DNA of 64,000 nucleotides from Cordylochernes scorpioides (lineage: Eukaryota; Arthropoda; Arachnida; Pseudoscorpiones; Chernetidae). The stretch is from assembly GCA_030710605.1 (NCBI GenBank), contig CP092880.1, positions 9,505,131-9,569,130 of the forward strand, written 5' to 3'. The translations under genes were made by a program, and so were the position numbers. Of this stretch, positions 5,791 to 15,830 are shown one piece after another. Below the pieces are notes generated by a model that was given only the letters and a program-made list of their open reading frames with translations, did not search any database and had not been told where the DNA came from. Position 1 is the first letter of the stretch; each line of letters starts with the position of its first letter.

Positions 5791-6420
5791 TAGTCCTCCC
5801 GCCTTCTTCCTGCCTCCTGACCTCCGTGGACCCAATCCGGCCTAACCTGCCTCTTCCCTGACGGAGATCCTGTTCCAAGCCTCTCCAGCCTGGTCATAGT
5901 GGTTTATATATATTCCGCTTTACGCGGCCATTGGGGCTCAAAAATCATTTTATTTTGGTTAGCAGCCCCGTAAATAAAGATATTTCCGTTTAACACAAAG
6001 CAATAACGCGCCATCTATATATATAAAATAAAAGGATTTAAAAGCGCGAATGTTTCTTTTATACATAATACAAACTTCTACTGTCCTTACTGCGATGAAA
6101 AATATATTGGGAGGGCTGGCTCATCAGCTTATGCTATTATAATAAAGCTTATAGTATAGCTATTATAAGCTTATGTCCATAGTTTTCTTGAAAACCATTT
6201 CTGAGATTCCATCTTTCAGTGCTGCGTATATAAGCAGAATCGTCCAATACAGTATAAGAGCTCTTAAAAGCGGTCTGGTGGATTAAATTGGCGAAACCGC
6301 TGGGAGGGTTCACCACTGATGAGCCAAGCCCTCCCAATATATTTTTTCATCGCAGTAAGGACAGTAGAAGTTTGTATTATGTATAAAAGAAACATTCGCG
6401 CTTTTAAATCCTTTTGTTTT

Positions 6421-6745
6421 TGTTGTGTATTTTAAAATTACCTCGTCGTTCTTTAAGCAAATTATTCCAACTCACCTTTATGCTTCTATTCTTGTATTCA
6501 TTTAGATAACATTCCTTAGGATTAATAAATTATTTATTTCAGTATTACATTTAATACAGCAGTTAATAATAAACAACTTAATTATATAAAAAGTTTTACA
6601 AAAAGAAAAACGCGGTCATTTGTTTACCGCCAACCAGAAAACTATATAAAAAATCAGGAGATGATGATAAATCAAATAATTATATTTGACCGGTCAATAT
6701 TCAAAATTAAATATAATATTGACTAGTCATACGAAATATACATCA
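6421..6745 (-). repeat. 3' LTR of the RT-less Ty3 element
   Basis: Minus-strand ends are TGATGTATATTTCG and ...ACACAACA, the TG...CA form expected of LTRs. It is preceded by a polypurine tract. It matches the copy at 9413-9737 base for base as far as I can read. Confidence 0.9.
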
Positions 6746-6760
6746 TTTCCTCTCCTCTTC
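6746..6760 (-). other. Polypurine tract
   Basis: On the minus strand GAAGAGGAGAGGAAA abuts the first TG of the 3' LTR. This is the expected plus-strand primer site of an LTR element. Confidence 0.8.
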
Positions 6761-6776
6761 GGAAGAGCGGAACTCT

Positions 6777-7277
6777 TCACAGGTTCAATCTCGTAGTTGG
6801 TCTTCGAATCCTACTAGATCTCCGGAGAGGAATCACTGGAGGGGATTTAGGATCCGGTGGTGTACTAGTCCGGGGACTCTGGGCTGGTTCAGTAGAAGAC
6901 TGCGGCTCCGATGTCACTTCCTGGTGTTGAGGAATCAGTTCTTCTGACTCGGTGTTGAGATCAGGCTCGGAGACTCCGGCGTGGTCTTCGGTAGCTTCAC
7001 CTCTCTTGTCAGGAATGTGAGATCTCCGCACTTGGTCCCAATGCCTTCTAGCTTGTCCTCTGGCTGTTTGTAAAGTCACTAGACGGTTTCCCGTAGTGTT
7101 TTGGATGCTCGCTTGGTCCCATTTTGGCTCTGATTTGTAGGTTCGGTACCAAACCGACTCTCCTACCTTAAAGCCTGGTTCCTCCGATTTACCAGGATTT
7201 GGTAAAATCAGATCCAAGCGACTCCGAATATTATGGCCAAACATCATTTCGGAAGGAGACTTTCCAATGCTGGCTAT
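6777..7277 (-). CDS. Ty3 integrase C-terminal region and tail, shifted frame
   Basis: This frame continues the integrase after a one-base shift at the G6/C6 run 7278-7283. From MMFGHNIRSRLDLI it has the usual C-terminal integrase pattern (GFKVGESVWYRTY, KWDQASIQNTTGN, RRHWDQVRRS), then a Ser/Pro/Glu-rich tail ending RRPTTRLNL and a stop 30 bases before the purine tract. The first ATG-like codon (7245-7247) is unlikely to be a true start; the protein is expected only as part of the polyprotein. It could be made if the extra base is a sequencing or assembly error or if frameshifting occurs. Confidence 0.75.
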   Translation of the reverse strand: MASIGKSPSEMMFGHNIRSRLDLILPNPGKSEEPGFKVGESVWYRTYKSEPKWDQASIQNTTGNRLVTLQTARGQARRHWDQVRRSHIPDKRGEATEDHAGVSEPDLNTESEELIPQHQEVTSEPQSSTEPAQSPRTSTPPDPKSPPVIPLRRSSRIRRPTTRLNL

Positions 7278-9318
7278 GGGGGGTCCTTCTATAGCCCAAC
7301 AGTATCTCAGCTAGGCGTTGAGATATGCTTCCTTGTTGTACTTTCTTAAGACCAGTTTTAATGGTTTGCACGGCACGTTCAGCTAAGCCATTGGAACTTG
7401 GGTGGAAGGGTGCAGTCCGTAGGTGACGGATACCATTTCTGGTCATGAACTGTCTGAATTCTTCGGAAGTGAACCCGGTACCATTATCAGATACTAGTGT
7501 TCTTGGAATGCCAAACCTGGCAAATAGACAGCGTAGTTGTTCGATGGTTTCTCTGGTGGAAGTGTTAGGAACAGGAATGGCTTCTATCCACTTGGTACAA
7601 GCGTCCACTACAATCAGGTACAGGTTTTGTTCAAATGGCCCCAGATGATCAATATGAACTCTATCCCAGGGTTGGTTGGTGGGCGGCCAATTGACTGGTG
7701 TAGTTCGGGGTGGCATGCTGGCATGGCTTTGGCAGCAGTTACACCGTCTAACGGTCTCTTCAATATCCTTGTCCAAACCAGGCCACCAAAACAAAGTTCG
7801 GGCGACACTTTTTAAACCAACAATGCCTTGATGACTATTATGTAATTCATCCAACATTTTGGCTCTTAAATTTGTAGGAATGATGACACGATTTCCCCAG
7901 AACAACAGACCCTCACAGGCTCCCAGCTCACATCTACGGCTCCAGTAAGGCATGAGTTCTATTTCCTTTGGTGTCTCTTCACTCCAACCTTGGAGAGTAT
8001 AATTCAAGGCTTGTCTTAAAGCAGGATCTCCTGGTAAGCTTGCCCGAATATCATCAGATGTAACTGGTGAACTGTCTAAAGCGTCCATCAATAATACCAT
8101 TTCCACAGGTTCTGAAGCAGGATGATAGCAGGGTAATTTAATCATGTCAACCTTGTATGGCTGGGTTGGTAGTATTCCCAATGCTTCCATCCAATTCCGA
8201 CCACAAAGGCTAGGACCTTCACCTCCAACAACCATCAGTGGTAGGGTCTGAGTACTATTCTGGTATTGTACGGGCACATCCAATGTACCTAACACTGGCA
8301 AGGGTTGGCCACTGTAGGTTGCCAACTTAACTCTTAATGGATCGGCAGGACATGGATTAGGTAGTCTAAAGAACCTTCGAGTGGATTCGGATATGAGGCT
8401 GTAGGCAGAGCCGGTATCATATTCAAATGACAGTATCTTATCATTGATTTGTACTTCAATCTTAATTGGATCGGTTGTTCTCCATAAATTTACGATTTTG
8501 AAGATTTGACTGCTGATTTCCGTCTCTGCGATGGCGTGTACTTTATTTCCATCCTTATTTGCAGTATAATTGCGTTGTGGCTTTCTTTTTAGACAACTTC
8601 TCCCCAAATGTCCAATTTTACCACAGTTGAAACATTTGGCTTTCAGATGAGGGCATTTTTCTTGCTTATGATCCTTAGCTCCACATCTTATGCATGTATA
8701 GCTTTCTGACCTGGTAAACTTTCCTGTAGTAGATGGCTTTAACCTCCAATTGCCTTGCTTAATTTTCATAACAACCTCTGGATTTCTTTGACTTTGTAAA
8801 TCTTTTGCATCTTGTGCTGCTGCTTCTAAAGCAAGAGCAATTTCAATAGCTCTATGCAAGGTCAAACTATCACCTTCCCCTAACAGTTTTCTTTGAATGT
8901 TGTCATCCTCAATTCCAGCTATTAGTCTATCACGGATAGCTTCATCTATCGTAGACCCAAATTTGCAATATTCAGCCATCTTCTTTAATTCAGCAATGTA
9001 TATTGAAATTTTTTCACCTGGCCTCCTTGCTCTATTTGAAAACTTTGAACGTTCAACGATAGCAGATGGGGTGGGGTTGAAATGGTTTTTTAATTTGCTC
9101 ACTAGAACTGGGTAAGTATTTTCTACATCAGATAATTTTTTTGGTATGCAAAGATCATATAAAAGGTTGTACACAGTTGGTGTTAGCAAGGTCAAGAAAA
9201 TAGCTTTCTTTTTATTTTGATCAATGTTATTTGCCTCAAAAAAATATTCCAATCTTTCGGTGTATCTTTCCCAACTTTCTGTAGTCTCTTCAAATTTTTC
9301 AATTGTAAAAAGAGACAT
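7231..9318 (-). CDS. Ty3/gypsy Gag-protease-integrase fusion, RT/RNase H deleted in frame
   Basis: An uninterrupted 695-codon frame starts MSLFTIEKFEE. Residues 1-200 are Gag. Two CCHC knuckles follow at 209-222 (CIRCGAKDHKQEKC) and 229-242 (CFNCGKIGHLGRSC). The aspartic protease active site is DTGS at 301-304. At about residue 393 the protease end (YKVDM) passes directly to the connector that normally follows RNase H (EPVEMVLLMDAL, PVTSDDIR). The integrase comes next: zinc-binding H..H..CX2C at 493-529 and catalytic D557, D611, E647 with the canonical DD35E spacing. No YxDD or RNase H motif exists anywhere in the element. The layout resembles K02A2.6-type Ty3 polyproteins. The last about 14 codons before the stop are out of frame with the integrase because of the C-run at 7278-7283. 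Confidence 0.9.
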   Translation of the reverse strand: MSLFTIEKFEETTESWERYTERLEYFFEANNIDQNKKKAIFLTLLTPTVYNLLYDLCIPKKLSDVENTYPVLVSKLKNHFNPTPSAIVERSKFSNRARRPGEKISIYIAELKKMAEYCKFGSTIDEAIRDRLIAGIEDDNIQRKLLGEGDSLTLHRAIEIALALEAAAQDAKDLQSQRNPEVVMKIKQGNWRLKPSTTGKFTRSESYTCIRCGAKDHKQEKCPHLKAKCFNCGKIGHLGRSCLKRKPQRNYTANKDGNKVHAIAETEISSQIFKIVNLWRTTDPIKIEVQINDKILSFEYDTGSAYSLISESTRRFFRLPNPCPADPLRVKLATYSGQPLPVLGTLDVPVQYQNSTQTLPLMVVGGEGPSLCGRNWMEALGILPTQPYKVDMIKLPCYHPASEPVEMVLLMDALDSSPVTSDDIRASLPGDPALRQALNYTLQGWSEETPKEIELMPYWSRRCELGACEGLLFWGNRVIIPTNLRAKMLDELHNSHQGIVGLKSVARTLFWWPGLDKDIEETVRRCNCCQSHASMPPRTTPVNWPPTNQPWDRVHIDHLGPFEQNLYLIVVDACTKWIEAIPVPNTSTRETIEQLRCLFARFGIPRTLVSDNGTGFTSEEFRQFMTRNGIRHLRTAPFHPSSNGLAERAVQTIKTGLKKVQQGSISQRLAEILLGYRRTPHSQHWKVSFRNDVWP

Positions 9319-9390
9319 TTTGAACTAATTTGTTTACTTATCTTTAAAAGGAAGATCCCTAATTTGTTTACTTATCTTCAATTGGAATAT

Positions 9391-9406
9391 CCCGTGCTCG
9401 TCGCCA
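9391..9406 (-). other. Primer-binding site of the Ty3 element
   Basis: TGGCGACGAGCACGGG on the minus strand lies six bases inside the 5' LTR. The TGG start fits the CCA end of a tRNA. I could not name the tRNA. Confidence 0.65.
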
Positions 9407-9412
9407 ATTTAC

Positions 9413-9737
9413 TGTTGTGTATTTTAAAATTACCTCGTCGTTCTTTAAGCAAATTATTCCAACTCACCTTTATGCTTCTATTCTTGTATTCATTTAGATA
9501 ACATTCCTTAGGATTAATAAATTATTTATTTCAGTATTACATTTAATACAGCAGTTAATAATAAACAACTTAATTATATAAAAAGTTTTACAAAAAGAAA
9601 AACGCGGTCATTTGTTTACCGCCAACCAGAAAACTATATAAAAAATCAGGAGATGATGATAAATCAAATAATTATATTTGACCGGTCAATATTCAAAATT
9701 AAATATAATATTGACTAGTCATACGAAATATACATCA
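9413..9737 (-). repeat. 5' LTR of the RT-less Ty3 element
   Basis: It is 325 bp and appears identical to 6421-6745. It is followed on the right by the second copy of the GTTTT target duplication (9738-9742). It should hold the promoter for the minus-strand transcript. Confidence 0.9.
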
Positions 9738-9819
9738 GTTTTATATATTTCCGTTTATCAAAATCCAAAAAATAAGAAATTGTCAGCAAATATTCCTTCC
9801 CTCCTGAATAGATTTTTAT

Positions 9820-10040: not shown

Positions 10041-11355
10041 CAGAGTCCATTATGAAAGAAATGAGCATTTACTGGCAAAATACATTTATTGATCGTAATT
10101 TGTGCAAATGTTCAATATTCTTCAAAATACATTCCTCCTGCATCAATACACTTGGGAGACGCGTTTGCCACGCCTGAAAGGCACCCTGAAACTCTTCGGC
10201 TAGAATGCTTCTCAGGAACGTTGTAACATGGTGTTGGATGTTTTCCACGGTTTCCCAATGTTTTCCTTTCATCTCTCTCTTGAGTCGCGGAAACAAAAAG
10301 AAGTCACATGGAGCTAAGTCGGGACTGTAAGGGGGGTGAGGGATCACCGGGGTGTTGCTCCGGGCCAGGAAGTTGGTAATGATGAAGGCTGTGTGGCTGG
10401 TGGCATTGTCATGGTGGAGCTTGACCGTGTCTTTAATGTCAGTCCTCACGCGTGCGATCCGGCGTTTCAATCTCCTGAGCACCTCCAGGTAAAATTCTGA
10501 GTTTACAGTTTGTCCCTGCGGTACAAACTCACAATGGACTATTCCTCGGATGTCAAAGACGACAATGATCATCGTTTTGATGCGTGACTTGCTCATTCGC
10601 GCTTTCTTGGGGCGTGGGGATGATTTTGTGTGCCATGCACAGCTCTGCCTTTTCGACTCTGGGTCGTATTCAAACATCCAGGATTCGTTTTCGGTTACTA
10701 CAGAGTTCAGAAAGTCCAGTTCATTTTGAATCAAATCCAACAATTCTTGACAGCGCAAAACTCTAAGTTCTTTCTGGTCTTGCGTCAACACTTTCGGCAC
10801 AAGCTTCGCACAGACCTTACGCATTTGCAGATCCTCGGTCACTATCCCATGTACCACAAATGTGGACATGTGTGATGTGTCAGCCATTTTCTGGATGCTT
10901 AATCGACGGTCGGTACGCAAAACTTCGAGCACACGATCCACGTTCTCGTCAGTTCTGGCCGTTGTTGAGCGTCCTGAACGGGGTTCGTCGGCGACCTCCT
11001 CCCGGCCCTCCTTGAACGCCTTGTGCCACTTCCCAGACTGTGATCTTGAAATGCAATCGTCCTTGAAGGCTTTTTGCAGCATCTGGAATGTTCGGTTGCA
11101 TTTTTTCCAAGTCTCACGCAAAACCTTATGGCGTATCGTCGGTTCAAGCGAACGCTCCATCGCGCTATGTTACAAAAGTTGAAAACACACTTCAAGCGGA
11201 GGCATGTATCTCCCCTCACACTGCTCGAACTCAACTGACGACCGGATGGATTGAAAGGGCATATCCCTCCACCACATCTCCCACGGTTTTACCGTGCTGC
11301 CATCTATCGTCGCGTCACAATAACATTATGCTCATTACTTTCATAATGGACCCTG
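10041..11355 (-). mobile_element. mariner element, nearly full length, TA-flanked
   Basis: Terminal inverted repeats of about 28 bp bound the element: CAGAGTCCATTATGAAAGAA on the left, and the right end reads inward as CAGGGTCCATTATGAAAGTA. TA dinucleotides lie at 10039-10040 and 11356-11357. Length is 1315 bp, typical for mariner. It carries one minus-strand transposase frame. The few mismatches between the repeats suggest a moderately recent insertion. Confidence 0.9.
10069..11160 (-). CDS. mariner transposase, open frame but catalytically altered
   Basis: The 363-codon frame has the mariner core: WHKAFKEGREEVADEPRSGR, VVHGIVTEDLQMRK, FDIRGIVHCEFVPQG, LHHDNATSHT (D251) and YSPDLAPCDFFLFP (D286), giving the DD34D spacing. 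The first catalytic Asp, normally in a GDESW context, is Asn158 (TENESW), so the DDD triad is broken. Residues about 6-27 read out of frame relative to the family: the next frame gives NRRYAIRFCVRLGKNATE, so two compensating indels have scrambled the first DNA-binding helix. Near the C-terminus (after QTRL) another indel replaces the normal end and lengthens the protein beyond the usual about 345 residues. Despite the open frame it is unlikely to be active. Confidence 0.85.
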   Translation of the reverse strand: MERSLEPTIRHKVLRETWKKCNRTFQMLQKAFKDDCISRSQSGKWHKAFKEGREEVADEPRSGRSTTARTDENVDRVLEVLRTDRRLSIQKMADTSHMSTFVVHGIVTEDLQMRKVCAKLVPKVLTQDQKELRVLRCQELLDLIQNELDFLNSVVTENESWMFEYDPESKRQSCAWHTKSSPRPKKARMSKSRIKTMIIVVFDIRGIVHCEFVPQGQTVNSEFYLEVLRRLKRRIARVRTDIKDTVKLHHDNATSHTAFIITNFLARSNTPVIPHPPYSPDLAPCDFFLFPRLKREMKGKHWETVENIQHHVTTFLRSILAEEFQGAFQAWQTRLPSVLMQEECILKNIEHLHKLRSINVFCQ

Positions 11356-13483: not shown

Positions 13484-14455
13484 TTATTGGCTTGCCAAGT
13501 TCGGGTCTTGGGAAAACATCGGTCCTTCTAATGTGAAAGCATGCTTGAGGCGGTCGATTGACACCCACGTGGATCTCTTTTTAATTTTCAGTTTGTAAAT
13601 TTTGGGTTTCCTAAAAAGGACTTTATATGGACAATCGTATGGTGGAGCTAGCGGTGGCAATATCAGGTCCAGACGTAGATAGACATGGGAACATGTCTCA
13701 AGTGGCTTGGGCACGTAAACGTGGCGGTTCCCATGTGGCCTGCTTGGTGCAGGTTTCAGGAATGCCATGGCGCGCTTGAAGTCCTCCAGCCACTGTTCGG
13801 TAGGCGAGCTTGCAGAGGGGGGGTCCTCGAAAAATTTTCCTGGAAGGGGTAGGGGCTTCCCATAGACCTGCTCAGCGGTTGTGGTGTTGAGATCTTCCCT
13901 TAGCGACGAACGAATCCCTAGGAGCACCAGGGGAAGTTTCAAGGACCAGCTCGTGGAATCGTGACAGCGAAGGGAGTCTTTCAGCTCTCTGTGGAATCTT
14001 TCTACCAGGCCGTTTGCTGCTGGGTGGTAGGGTGATGTCCTTATTCTGTTGATTCCCAGAAGTCGTGTCAACTCACCGAAAAGTGCTGATTCAAACTGCC
14101 TGCCTTGGTCTGTAGTCACTTTTGCTGGCACGCCAAAACGAGATATCCAGACCGATAGGAAAGCATTTGCTACTGTTTTGGCGGTGATGTCCTGTATGGG
14201 CAGGGCTTCGGGCCACCTAGTGAATCGGTCGACGCAGGTGAATATGTACCGATAGTTTTCACTCGGTGGTAATGGTCCGACCAGGTCAATGTGAACATGA
14301 CTGAACCTTCCGTCTGGGGGACTAAACGACTGAAGGGGCGTTCTTGTGTGTCTAGTGGTTTTGGAGACTTGGCAGCGGTGGCAGGCGCGAATCCAAAGTG
14401 CGCAATCCTTCTTGACGGCCGGCCAGACGTAATGGGCGGTGACCATCCTTGTAGT
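13484..14455 (-). pseudogene. Ty3 integrase
   Basis: The 320-codon frame opens in the zinc-binding region ([20 protein letters not shown]). The DDE core follows: D in [12 protein letters not shown] in TTDQGRQF and E in [14 protein letters not shown]-terminal part contains [11 protein letters not shown]. The first His residues of the zinc finger lie upstream in the same frame, behind a TGA that looks like a decayed CGA Arg codon. Integrase inserts element DNA in the nucleus; this copy cannot be made intact. Confidence 0.85.
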
Positions 14456-14458
14456 AGC

Positions 14459-15830
14459 TCATACTCCGGGGTGAGACAAGTTGTGGTATGCAGAAAAAAT
14501 TATGCGGCGACAGGATGCGGGTACGAATGGTCTGGGTTTTACTGTGGAAGCGTCACAGTACAAGGAAATGTTCGTTTCTGGGATTTGTACTTTTTCCAGT
14601 TGTAGTGAGCTGCGGTTTTCCGATGTCAAGAGAGCTTGTAGCTCCTGGTCTACTGCTTGCGCTTCGGCGAAGGATTTCGGGTCATAAGGTTGGTGATGGG
14701 AGATGGGTTCCACACGTGGCAGGAAATCTGCAGGTACATTTTCACAGCCCGCGATGTGGCGGATGTCTGTTGTGAATTGCCCGATGAAATCGAGGTGTCG
14801 ACATTGGCGCGGTGAGGCCTTGTCCAGATTTTGTTGAAAGGCGTATGTGAGAGGTTTGTGGTCCGTATAGACCGGAAATTGCCGCCCTTCCAATAAATGC
14901 CTGAAATGTTTGATAGCCAAGTATAACGTCAGGAGTTCTCTGTCGTTTGCGCTGTATTTCCTTTGTGCAGCGTCTAGTTTCCTTGAGAAAAACGCTATTG
15001 GTTGGAAATTGTTGCCAACCTGCTGGTGAAGCGCGGCGCCCACAGCAAAATCCGAGGCATCTACCATAAGGCAGAGAGGCGCTTCTGGAAAATGATGGTG
15101 CAAGAGGGCAGCGTTGGCTAGTTGAAGTTTGCACTGGTCGAAAGCCTGGAGTGCTGTTGGCGTCCATTGGCAGGATGCGTTCTTGCGCCTTTCGACCATG
15201 GCGTGGAGTGATGCCTGAGTACTAGCGGCATTGGGGAGGCAGCGCCGATAGAAATTTAACATACCCAGAAAACGCCGAAGTTTTCCGACAGTATCAGAGA
15301 TTGGGATGTCTTTAATTGCTTGTACTCGCTGAGGGTCCAGCAAGATTCCGGCGTTGGTGATGATAAACCCCAAGAATTTGACTGAAGTTTGGCCGAAGGT
15401 GCATTTGGTTTCGTTGATCGTCAGGCCGTAGTCTCGAAGGCGACCAAAAAGTTGTTGAAGATGGGATATGTGTTGATTTTCTGAATCGGATGCGATAAGC
15501 ACGTCGTCAATGTAGGCATATGCAAAATCCAAACCTTAGAGTACTTCGTTGATGAGCCTTTGAAAGGTTTGGGCTGCATTACATAGGCCAAAGGACATGC
15601 GGGGAAACTCAAAAAGGCCGAAAGGCGTAATAACGGCAGTCTCAAGGATATCACTAGATTCCACGGGCACATGGTGGTACGCTCTAACCAGATCGATAGT
15701 AGAAAATATATTCTTACCATGCAGATGCGATGCAAAGTCCATAATGTTAGGGACTGGATATCGGTCGGGGACGGTAGCGGCATTTAGTTTCCTGTAGTCC
15801 CCACATGGTCGTAACGAGCCGTCTTTTTTG
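14459..15830 (-). pseudogene. Ty3 reverse transcriptase and RNase H
   Basis: Fingers and palm motifs are visible: [55 protein letters not shown] and the catalytic YIDD (about 15503-15514). RNase H follows with D in LMVDASDFAVG, E in NDREL and D in YTDHKPLTY, then the connector. A TAA at 15536-15538 interrupts the palm eleven bases' worth of codons before YIDD, and a one-base shift near 15823 separates the KKDG start. Confidence 0.85.

Follow-up and report, generated by a model that had tools for sequence, protein, structure and literature searches.

How could a long terminal repeat (LTR) retrotransposon that encodes no reverse transcriptase (RT) have transposed recently? The question is raised by a locus in the pseudoscorpion Cordylochernes scorpioides, within a stretch of 64,000 nt (contig CP092880.1, positions 9,505,131 to 9,569,130; hereafter the window) of a 2.62 Gb assembly comprising 24 contigs (GCA_030710605.1). 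An original prediction, made from the letters of the window alone, had described there a Ty3 element from which the RT-RNase H block was missing, and had proposed that the element was copied and integrated in this deleted state, with RT from a relative. Searches of the whole assembly found the same deletion junction at 23 places, together with a closely related family that retains RT. The element is very probably one of a young subfamily of non-autonomous elements, derived from a Ty3-type LTR retrotransposon, that are mobilised by RT-encoding (RT+) relatives and recombine with them by template switching.

The window contained a complete LTR retrotransposon on the minus strand at positions 6421-9737, with the open reading frame (ORF) order Gag, protease, integrase. 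Its features were as follows (window coordinates; strand; feature; basis of the assignment in brackets):

6416-6420; no strand; target-site duplication (TSD) GTTTT, left copy (sequence)
6421-6745; minus; 3' LTR, 325 bp, TG..CA in coding orientation (LTR alignment)
6746-6761; minus; polypurine tract (PPT) CGAAGAGGAGAGGAAA (identical string in 21 of 23 RT-less copies and 11 of 13 RT+ copies with the segment)
6777-7247; minus; ORF with the integrase C-terminal region, in another frame, the window copy being frameshifted (ORF list)
7231-9318; minus; 695-codon ORF with Gag, two CCHC knuckles, protease, and integrase zinc-binding domain and catalytic core (ORF list, Pfam)
7399-7623; minus; integrase catalytic core, Pfam rve (E 5.9e-16, above cut-off)
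7723-7881; minus; integrase H2C2 zinc-binding domain (Pfam E 7.8e-14, above cut-off)
8117-8136; minus; 20-nt filler at the junction, in place of RT-RNase H and diagnostic of the RT-less form (pattern searches)
8137-8520; minus; aspartic protease region with DTGS motif (weak Pfam match, E 0.006; motif by eye)
8593-8637; minus; second CCHC zinc knuckle (Pfam E 0.0012, just under cut-off)
9389-9406; minus; putative primer binding site (PBS) TGGCGACGAGCACGGGAT, 6 nt inside the 5' LTR edge (sequence)
9413-9737; minus; 5' LTR, identical to the 3' LTR (LTR alignment)
9738-9742; no strand; TSD GTTTT, right copy (sequence)

The identity of the two LTRs (325/325 positions) and the GTTTT duplication at both ends were as originally described. 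The TG..CA LTR pair, the 5-bp TSD, the putative PBS and the PPT are those of a Ty3-type element; we take the string at 9389-9406, which would match the 3' end of a tRNA-Ser, to be the PBS. In the translation of the 695-codon ORF, visual inspection showed two CCHC knuckles, DTGS and D,D35E. The single frame predicted to run from Gag through the knuckles and DTGS to H2C2 and DD35E was present, but the C-terminus of the integrase lay outside it, in the second ORF. The frame was intact across the junction and broken before the integrase C-terminus, in a homopolymer run, and this frameshift of the window copy may be an assembly error.

No RT or RNase H Pfam model matched the 695-codon ORF up to E 0.01, whereas an RT+ relative was matched, in agreement with the earlier claim that the block is missing. 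The junction followed codon 394, and the frame was kept there, as had been proposed for about residue 393. The pol order protease-RT-RNase H-integrase was found in the RT+ partners and not in the window copy. Among non-autonomous LTR retrotransposons, LARD, TRIM and TR-GAG elements carry no genes or gag alone. The window element differs from LARD and TRIM, which have no coding capacity, in its 695-codon ORF, and from TR-GAG, which has Gag alone, in its integrase domains. Ginger-like elements have terminal inverted repeats and no PBS; the window element has 325-bp direct LTRs and a PBS-like site.

The RT-less form with the 20-nt filler is called form A below, two other deletions of RT are called B1 and B2, and the RT+ form is called C. 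A 301-bp junction probe (222 candidates, 40 scored) gave 23 full-length genome matches of 91-100% identity, including the window, among 43 matches listed. A 29-mer comprising filler and right flank (two or fewer mismatches) found the same 23 places with no control hits, and the filler alone (one or no mismatch) occurred only at these 23 places in the assembly, which were spread over 14 of the 24 contigs. All 23 copies made up the form A sample; in seven (L001 and L003-L008) the analysis covered the 3' LTR minus its outer part. Perfect 5-bp TSDs flanked 14 of the 16 form A copies with both flanks read, and these comprised 13 different sequences. The TSD of copy L027 contained one mismatch, and that of L035 could not be judged, the LTR match being cut. 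Copies L031 and L032, separated by 73 kb on contig C6, had identical TSDs and are likely one segmental duplication; L031 had six LTR mismatches and L032 none.

LTR pairs were compared in 22 form A copies (L006 was dropped, and six of the 22 were compared over 247 nt). Ten pairs had no mismatch, the median within-copy divergence was 0.32%, and the highest divergence was six mismatches (L031 and L035). Between copies, 5' LTRs diverged by a mean of 2.6% (66 pairs from 12 copies). LTRs alike within copies and unlike between them are as expected if both LTRs are remade from one RNA by reverse transcription. An essential enzyme is gone from form A, yet there are several independent insertions, as in a non-autonomous derivative. 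The proposal that the RT-less form was itself copied and inserted is thus supported, and the window element is not a one-off but one of 23 same-junction copies. The original prediction had suggested searching the genome for such copies and for a full-length relative and aligning LTR pairs, and had named a unique copy as the outcome that would count against it; the copy was not unique, and the searches found the relative also.

Probes on either side of the junction gave a census of this relative and of other deletions. A 33-mer on the protease side occurred at 120 places (100 of them listed) and a 35-mer on the integrase side at 121 places (100 of them listed). Among the 100 listed protease-side sites, the gap between the two probes was 1327-1421 nt (mode 1418; form C) at 46, 20 nt (form A) at 23, 152 nt (B1) at two, 170 nt (B2) at three, and longer (1648-6951 nt) at four, while 22 had no integrase-side partner within 8 kb. 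Likewise, 22 listed integrase-side sites were without a protease-side partner. A 33-mer from RT occurred at 87 places, one of which was an inverted piece inside the form A copy L026.

In total, 18 copies were classed as RT+: L012-L016, L018-L024 and L043-L046, and two without a readable RT motif (L017 and L025). The form C interval in L015 matched RVT_1 (E 1.4e-25) and RNase H (E 3.9e-34; two RNase H models matched). Compared with solved structures, the RT-RNase H of one RT+ copy was most similar to Ty3 Gag-Pol (7q5b, E 2.3e-76). The commonest LTR ends, PBS and PPT strings were identical between RT-less and RT+ copies. The partner family thus mostly shares its LTR ends, PBS, PPT and polymorphisms with form A and differs from it in having RT-RNase H between protease and integrase. 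The median divergence of RT+ LTR pairs equalled that of form A in a young group (nine copies) and was 0.94% in an older group (seven copies). The relative that had been predicted as the source of RT is present in the genome, and it would presumably supply RT in trans.

Some further variants were seen among these copies. A different deletion, lying between the integrase core and the 3' region, was common to three RT+ copies (L014, L020 and L024), which may represent one more deletion form that has proliferated. In the RT+ copy L019 a 235-bp integrase piece was inserted within the RT-RNase H region, which may be another sign of template switching. Among the six commonest PBS strings of the RT-less copies, GAGCACGGGAT was found in 13 of 23 and GAGGATGGGAT in four of 23; the two variants perhaps reflect priming by two tRNA species.

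Outside the junction, form A and form C were mixed. Segment trees of the LTR, Gag, protease, integrase and 3' region interleaved the two forms in all five cases. Of the 42 substitutions common to at least two of 21 form A copies (L031 and L036 were dropped), 35 also occurred in B or C copies, and outside the filler no allele carried by the majority of form A copies was found to be missing from all B and C copies. The gap of the short LTR type was present in eight of 21 form A copies and in four of 15 other copies, with short and long LTR types in both forms.

Linkage with form A status was measured at 66 single-nucleotide polymorphism (SNP) sites in 22 form A copies and 16 non-A young copies (11 RT+ and five B; seven old RT+ copies and the duplicate L031 were dropped). 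On the integrase side r2 was 0.52 at 17 nt from the junction; sites at 74-214 nt had values of 0.06-0.22, and those at 426-457 nt had 0.01. Still farther out, ahead of the 3' LTR, five sites again had values of 0.13-0.21, and three of these were alleles of the same three non-A copies. Upstream, r2 was 0.00 and 0.03 at two protease sites. The mean r2 within 250 nt of the junction was 0.158 (11 sites), a value reached by none of 5000 label shuffles, and the mean beyond 400 nt was 0.037 (55 sites), reached by 11 of 200 shuffles. When identical neighbouring sites were merged into one, the integrase side gave 0.198 near the junction (six sites) and 0.037 far from it (20 sites; none of 2000 shuffles). 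The near value on the integrase side was about 0.22 after either the three diverged copies L011, L041 and L022 or all B copies were dropped.

One copy, L026, combined the form A junction with a 392-bp inverted piece of RT that was 98.7% like an RT+ copy. Its point of entry was an 8-nt stretch that both share; the LTRs of this copy were identical and its TSD was perfect. L026 looks like the product of a template switch between RT-less and RT+ RNAs.

Because the filler is unique, polymorphism is shared, and linkage is raised next to the junction, the picture is of one deletion event that recombination would have carried onto many backgrounds. Since the two LTRs of a copy resemble each other, we infer that the exchange most likely occurred while co-packaged RNAs were being reverse transcribed. 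The mosaic of the two forms points to particles that contained both RT-less and RT+ RNAs, a step beyond what the original prediction had claimed.

Several observations weigh against this account or narrow it. The decay of linkage from the junction is demonstrated on the integrase side alone: the sole SNP within 250 nt on the protease side had an r2 of 0.003, so that linkage is unsupported there. One Gag site 639 nt from the junction had an r2 of 0.23. Several of the linked integrase-side sites were carried by the same three copies, and the label shuffles ignore relatedness, making the linkage figures descriptive. Gene conversion after insertion could also yield some of the mosaicism. In addition, the RT motif was ALDD in all 16 readable RT+ copies (of 18) in place of the YLDD of Ty3; to our knowledge ALDD is unusual at the RT catalytic motif, and the source of RT might be another family. 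No stretch of 11 nt or more of the filler was found in five RT+ copies, nor was the filler found at any other place in the assembly (one or no mismatch), leaving its origin unexplained.

By the proposed route, RT-RNase H would have been lost once from an RNA or cDNA of the family, leaving the 20-nt filler and keeping the protease-integrase frame. The RT-less RNA would then be packaged together with an RT+ RNA of the same family, and the RT of the partner would copy it via the common LTR ends, PBS and PPT. Either integrase could insert the product, generating 5-bp duplications. Template switching during copying would swap the rest of the element, such that the loss of RT would behave as a deletion polymorphism in one recombining family. 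Co-packaging, RT in trans and template switching are all inferred from the patterns in the copies, and the recombination between the two forms is indirect evidence that the partner mobilises form A. The RT-less form may also make its own Gag-protease-integrase protein, and this may act in cis.

The two other deletions differed from form A in their breakpoints. The B1 copies (L011 and L041) broke at a 7-nt repeat, and the B2 copies (L009, L010 and L042) had different breakpoints with a few extra bases. Relative to the modal gap of 1418 nt, the net loss was 1398 nt in form A, 1266 nt in B1 and 1248 nt in B2, all multiples of three. The two B1 copies stood apart in the protease tree, and B1 could have arisen twice. 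With the frame of L005 as reference, five of 23 form A copies were free of frameshifts and stops and 18 had at least one; several of these breaks were in homopolymer runs and one Gag indel was common to three copies. Singleton substitutions in 21 form A copies comprised 65 nonsynonymous (N) and 40 synonymous (S) changes and five stops (about 4.5 expected), giving an omega of 0.63 (p 0.02). Shared substitutions in the same 21 copies comprised N 19 and S 23 with no stops (about 1.7 expected), giving an omega of 0.32 (p 0.0004). Those shared substitutions that were private to form A numbered N 3 and S 4, too few to speak to selection. Purifying selection on the RT-less proteins was considered and rejected as the source of the low N/S, which cannot be credited to it when 35 of the 42 shared substitutions also occur in RT+ or B copies. 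The retroelement family is under constraint, and the source of this signal appears to be mostly the pool common to RT+ and RT-less copies.

These data bear on whether the loss of RT is beneficial or bound to the frame, with an in-frame Gag-protease-integrase fusion that helps its own RNA in cis and an RT that is cheaply borrowed. Such a benefit would be compatible with mobilisation by RT+ relatives, and we regard it as a serious possibility, though one we would not favour. The frame was kept in all three RT-less junctions, an outcome with a probability of 1 in 27 for independent deletions (suggestive only), and no out-of-frame loss above 91 nt was found among 74 listed sites (46 form C, 23 form A and five B). 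Five form A copies have a whole frame, and a study of mouse IAP elements offers a precedent for a cis-acting fusion protein (PMC6466679). On the other hand, the frame is broken in 18 of the 23 copies, including those with breaks in homopolymers and the Gag indel of three copies; the substitutions private to form A are too few, and the low N/S of the shared ones comes mostly from the common pool. Three events are a small sample, B1 may have arisen twice, and the census is blind to deletions reaching the probes, with the 22 partnerless sites outside the comparison. The stronger claim, that RT loss is a selected allele segregating in a freely recombining family, with at least three in-frame origins and with elements that provide Gag-protease-integrase in cis and borrow RT being copied at least as well as complete ones, is somewhat less likely again and is offered tentatively.

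A recurrent junction, arising for example by splicing of the family RNA so that each RT-less copy derives from a different RT+ copy, would account for the interleaving in all five segment trees and for the lack of linkage at the sole near site on the protease side, and RT+ copies do have a GT at the 5' side of the junction (ATTAAA/GTAACA). It is nevertheless largely refuted and very improbable: the filler has no match of 11 nt or more in five RT+ copies and occurs nowhere else in the assembly (one or no mismatch), linkage beside the junction is raised on the integrase side as for a single origin, and the two other deletions have other breakpoints, one of them at a 7-nt repeat. A splicing origin was set aside on the filler and the integrase-side linkage. 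Copying by DNA-level duplication, or by an integrase-only cut-and-paste of the Ginger type, has L031 and L032 in its favour, whose one TSD, 73 kb apart, is as in a segmental duplication, but is more improbable still for the set as a whole given 13 different TSDs among 14 perfect ones, LTR pairs alike within and different between copies, PBS and PPT mostly as in RT+ copies, and sequence exchange with those copies. Errors of the assembly consensus could be included among the homopolymer indels; that the form itself is an assembly artefact is hardly credible when one junction and one filler recur at 23 places, spread across 14 of 24 contigs and flanked by different TSDs.

The proposed mobilisation of form A by RT+ relatives has partial precedents. 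The closest is mouse IAP I-delta-1, which has lost 1.9 kb of gag and pol, encodes a gag-pol fusion, and is mobilised in trans by other members of its family, as tested experimentally (PMC6466679). By analogy, form A would be a similar case, with an internal deletion, a novel fusion frame, and success as a non-autonomous copied form. It is unlike I-delta-1 in that Gag, protease and integrase stay and only RT-RNase H is gone, in belonging to another retroelement family, and in being known from sequence alone. A deletion that keeps an open fusion frame, as in I-delta-1, was found in five of the 23 form A copies, the window copy being frameshifted in integrase. MusD and ETn likewise form an autonomous/non-autonomous LTR pair of one lineage, but ETn is without coding capacity (PMC6466679). 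In wheat centromeres, RLG_Cereba and RLG_Quinta are an autonomous/non-autonomous pair with common LTR ends, PBS and PPT, and recombination between Quinta lineages has been attributed to template switching (PMC11302176). Quinta, however, encodes only Gag and a domain of unknown function, lacks RT and integrase, and split early from Cereba (PMC11302176), whereas in the present family protease and integrase are kept and RT-less and RT+ copies are inseparable outside the junction. LTR elements without coding sequence have also been described in mosquitoes (PMC3286476).

Among the papers listed in searches of the open-licence literature, judged mostly by title or the start of the abstract, none was found to describe an LTR element in which Gag, protease and integrase are kept and RT alone is missing. 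The form had been called unusual, and to that extent it is, with the qualification that similar deletion forms such as IAP I-delta-1 are known. Internally deleted forms that are mobilised in trans have precedents; what sets this one apart is the domain pattern together with the apparently free exchange with the helper. The non-autonomous LTR elements compared here retain few genes or none, or are missing sections of gag and pol, while the RT-less form drops only RT-RNase H and appears to be still in open genetic exchange with its helper. It offers a natural system in which two questions, the need for individual retroelement proteins to act in cis and the frequency with which one particle contains two RNAs, can be approached from sequence and by testing.

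The surroundings of the element contained further repeats. A stretch at 6025-6420 resembled a miniature inverted-repeat transposable element, with 78-nt inverted arms that were 99% complementary and 240 nt apart. The LTR element was inserted at the very end of this stretch, and the last five bases of the stretch form the TSD. A 363-codon ORF at 10069-11160 on the minus strand encoded a mariner-type transposase (Transposase_1 match), and pieces of a second Ty3-like pol gene, in which a YIDD motif was recognised by eye, were found at 13484-15532, also on the minus strand.

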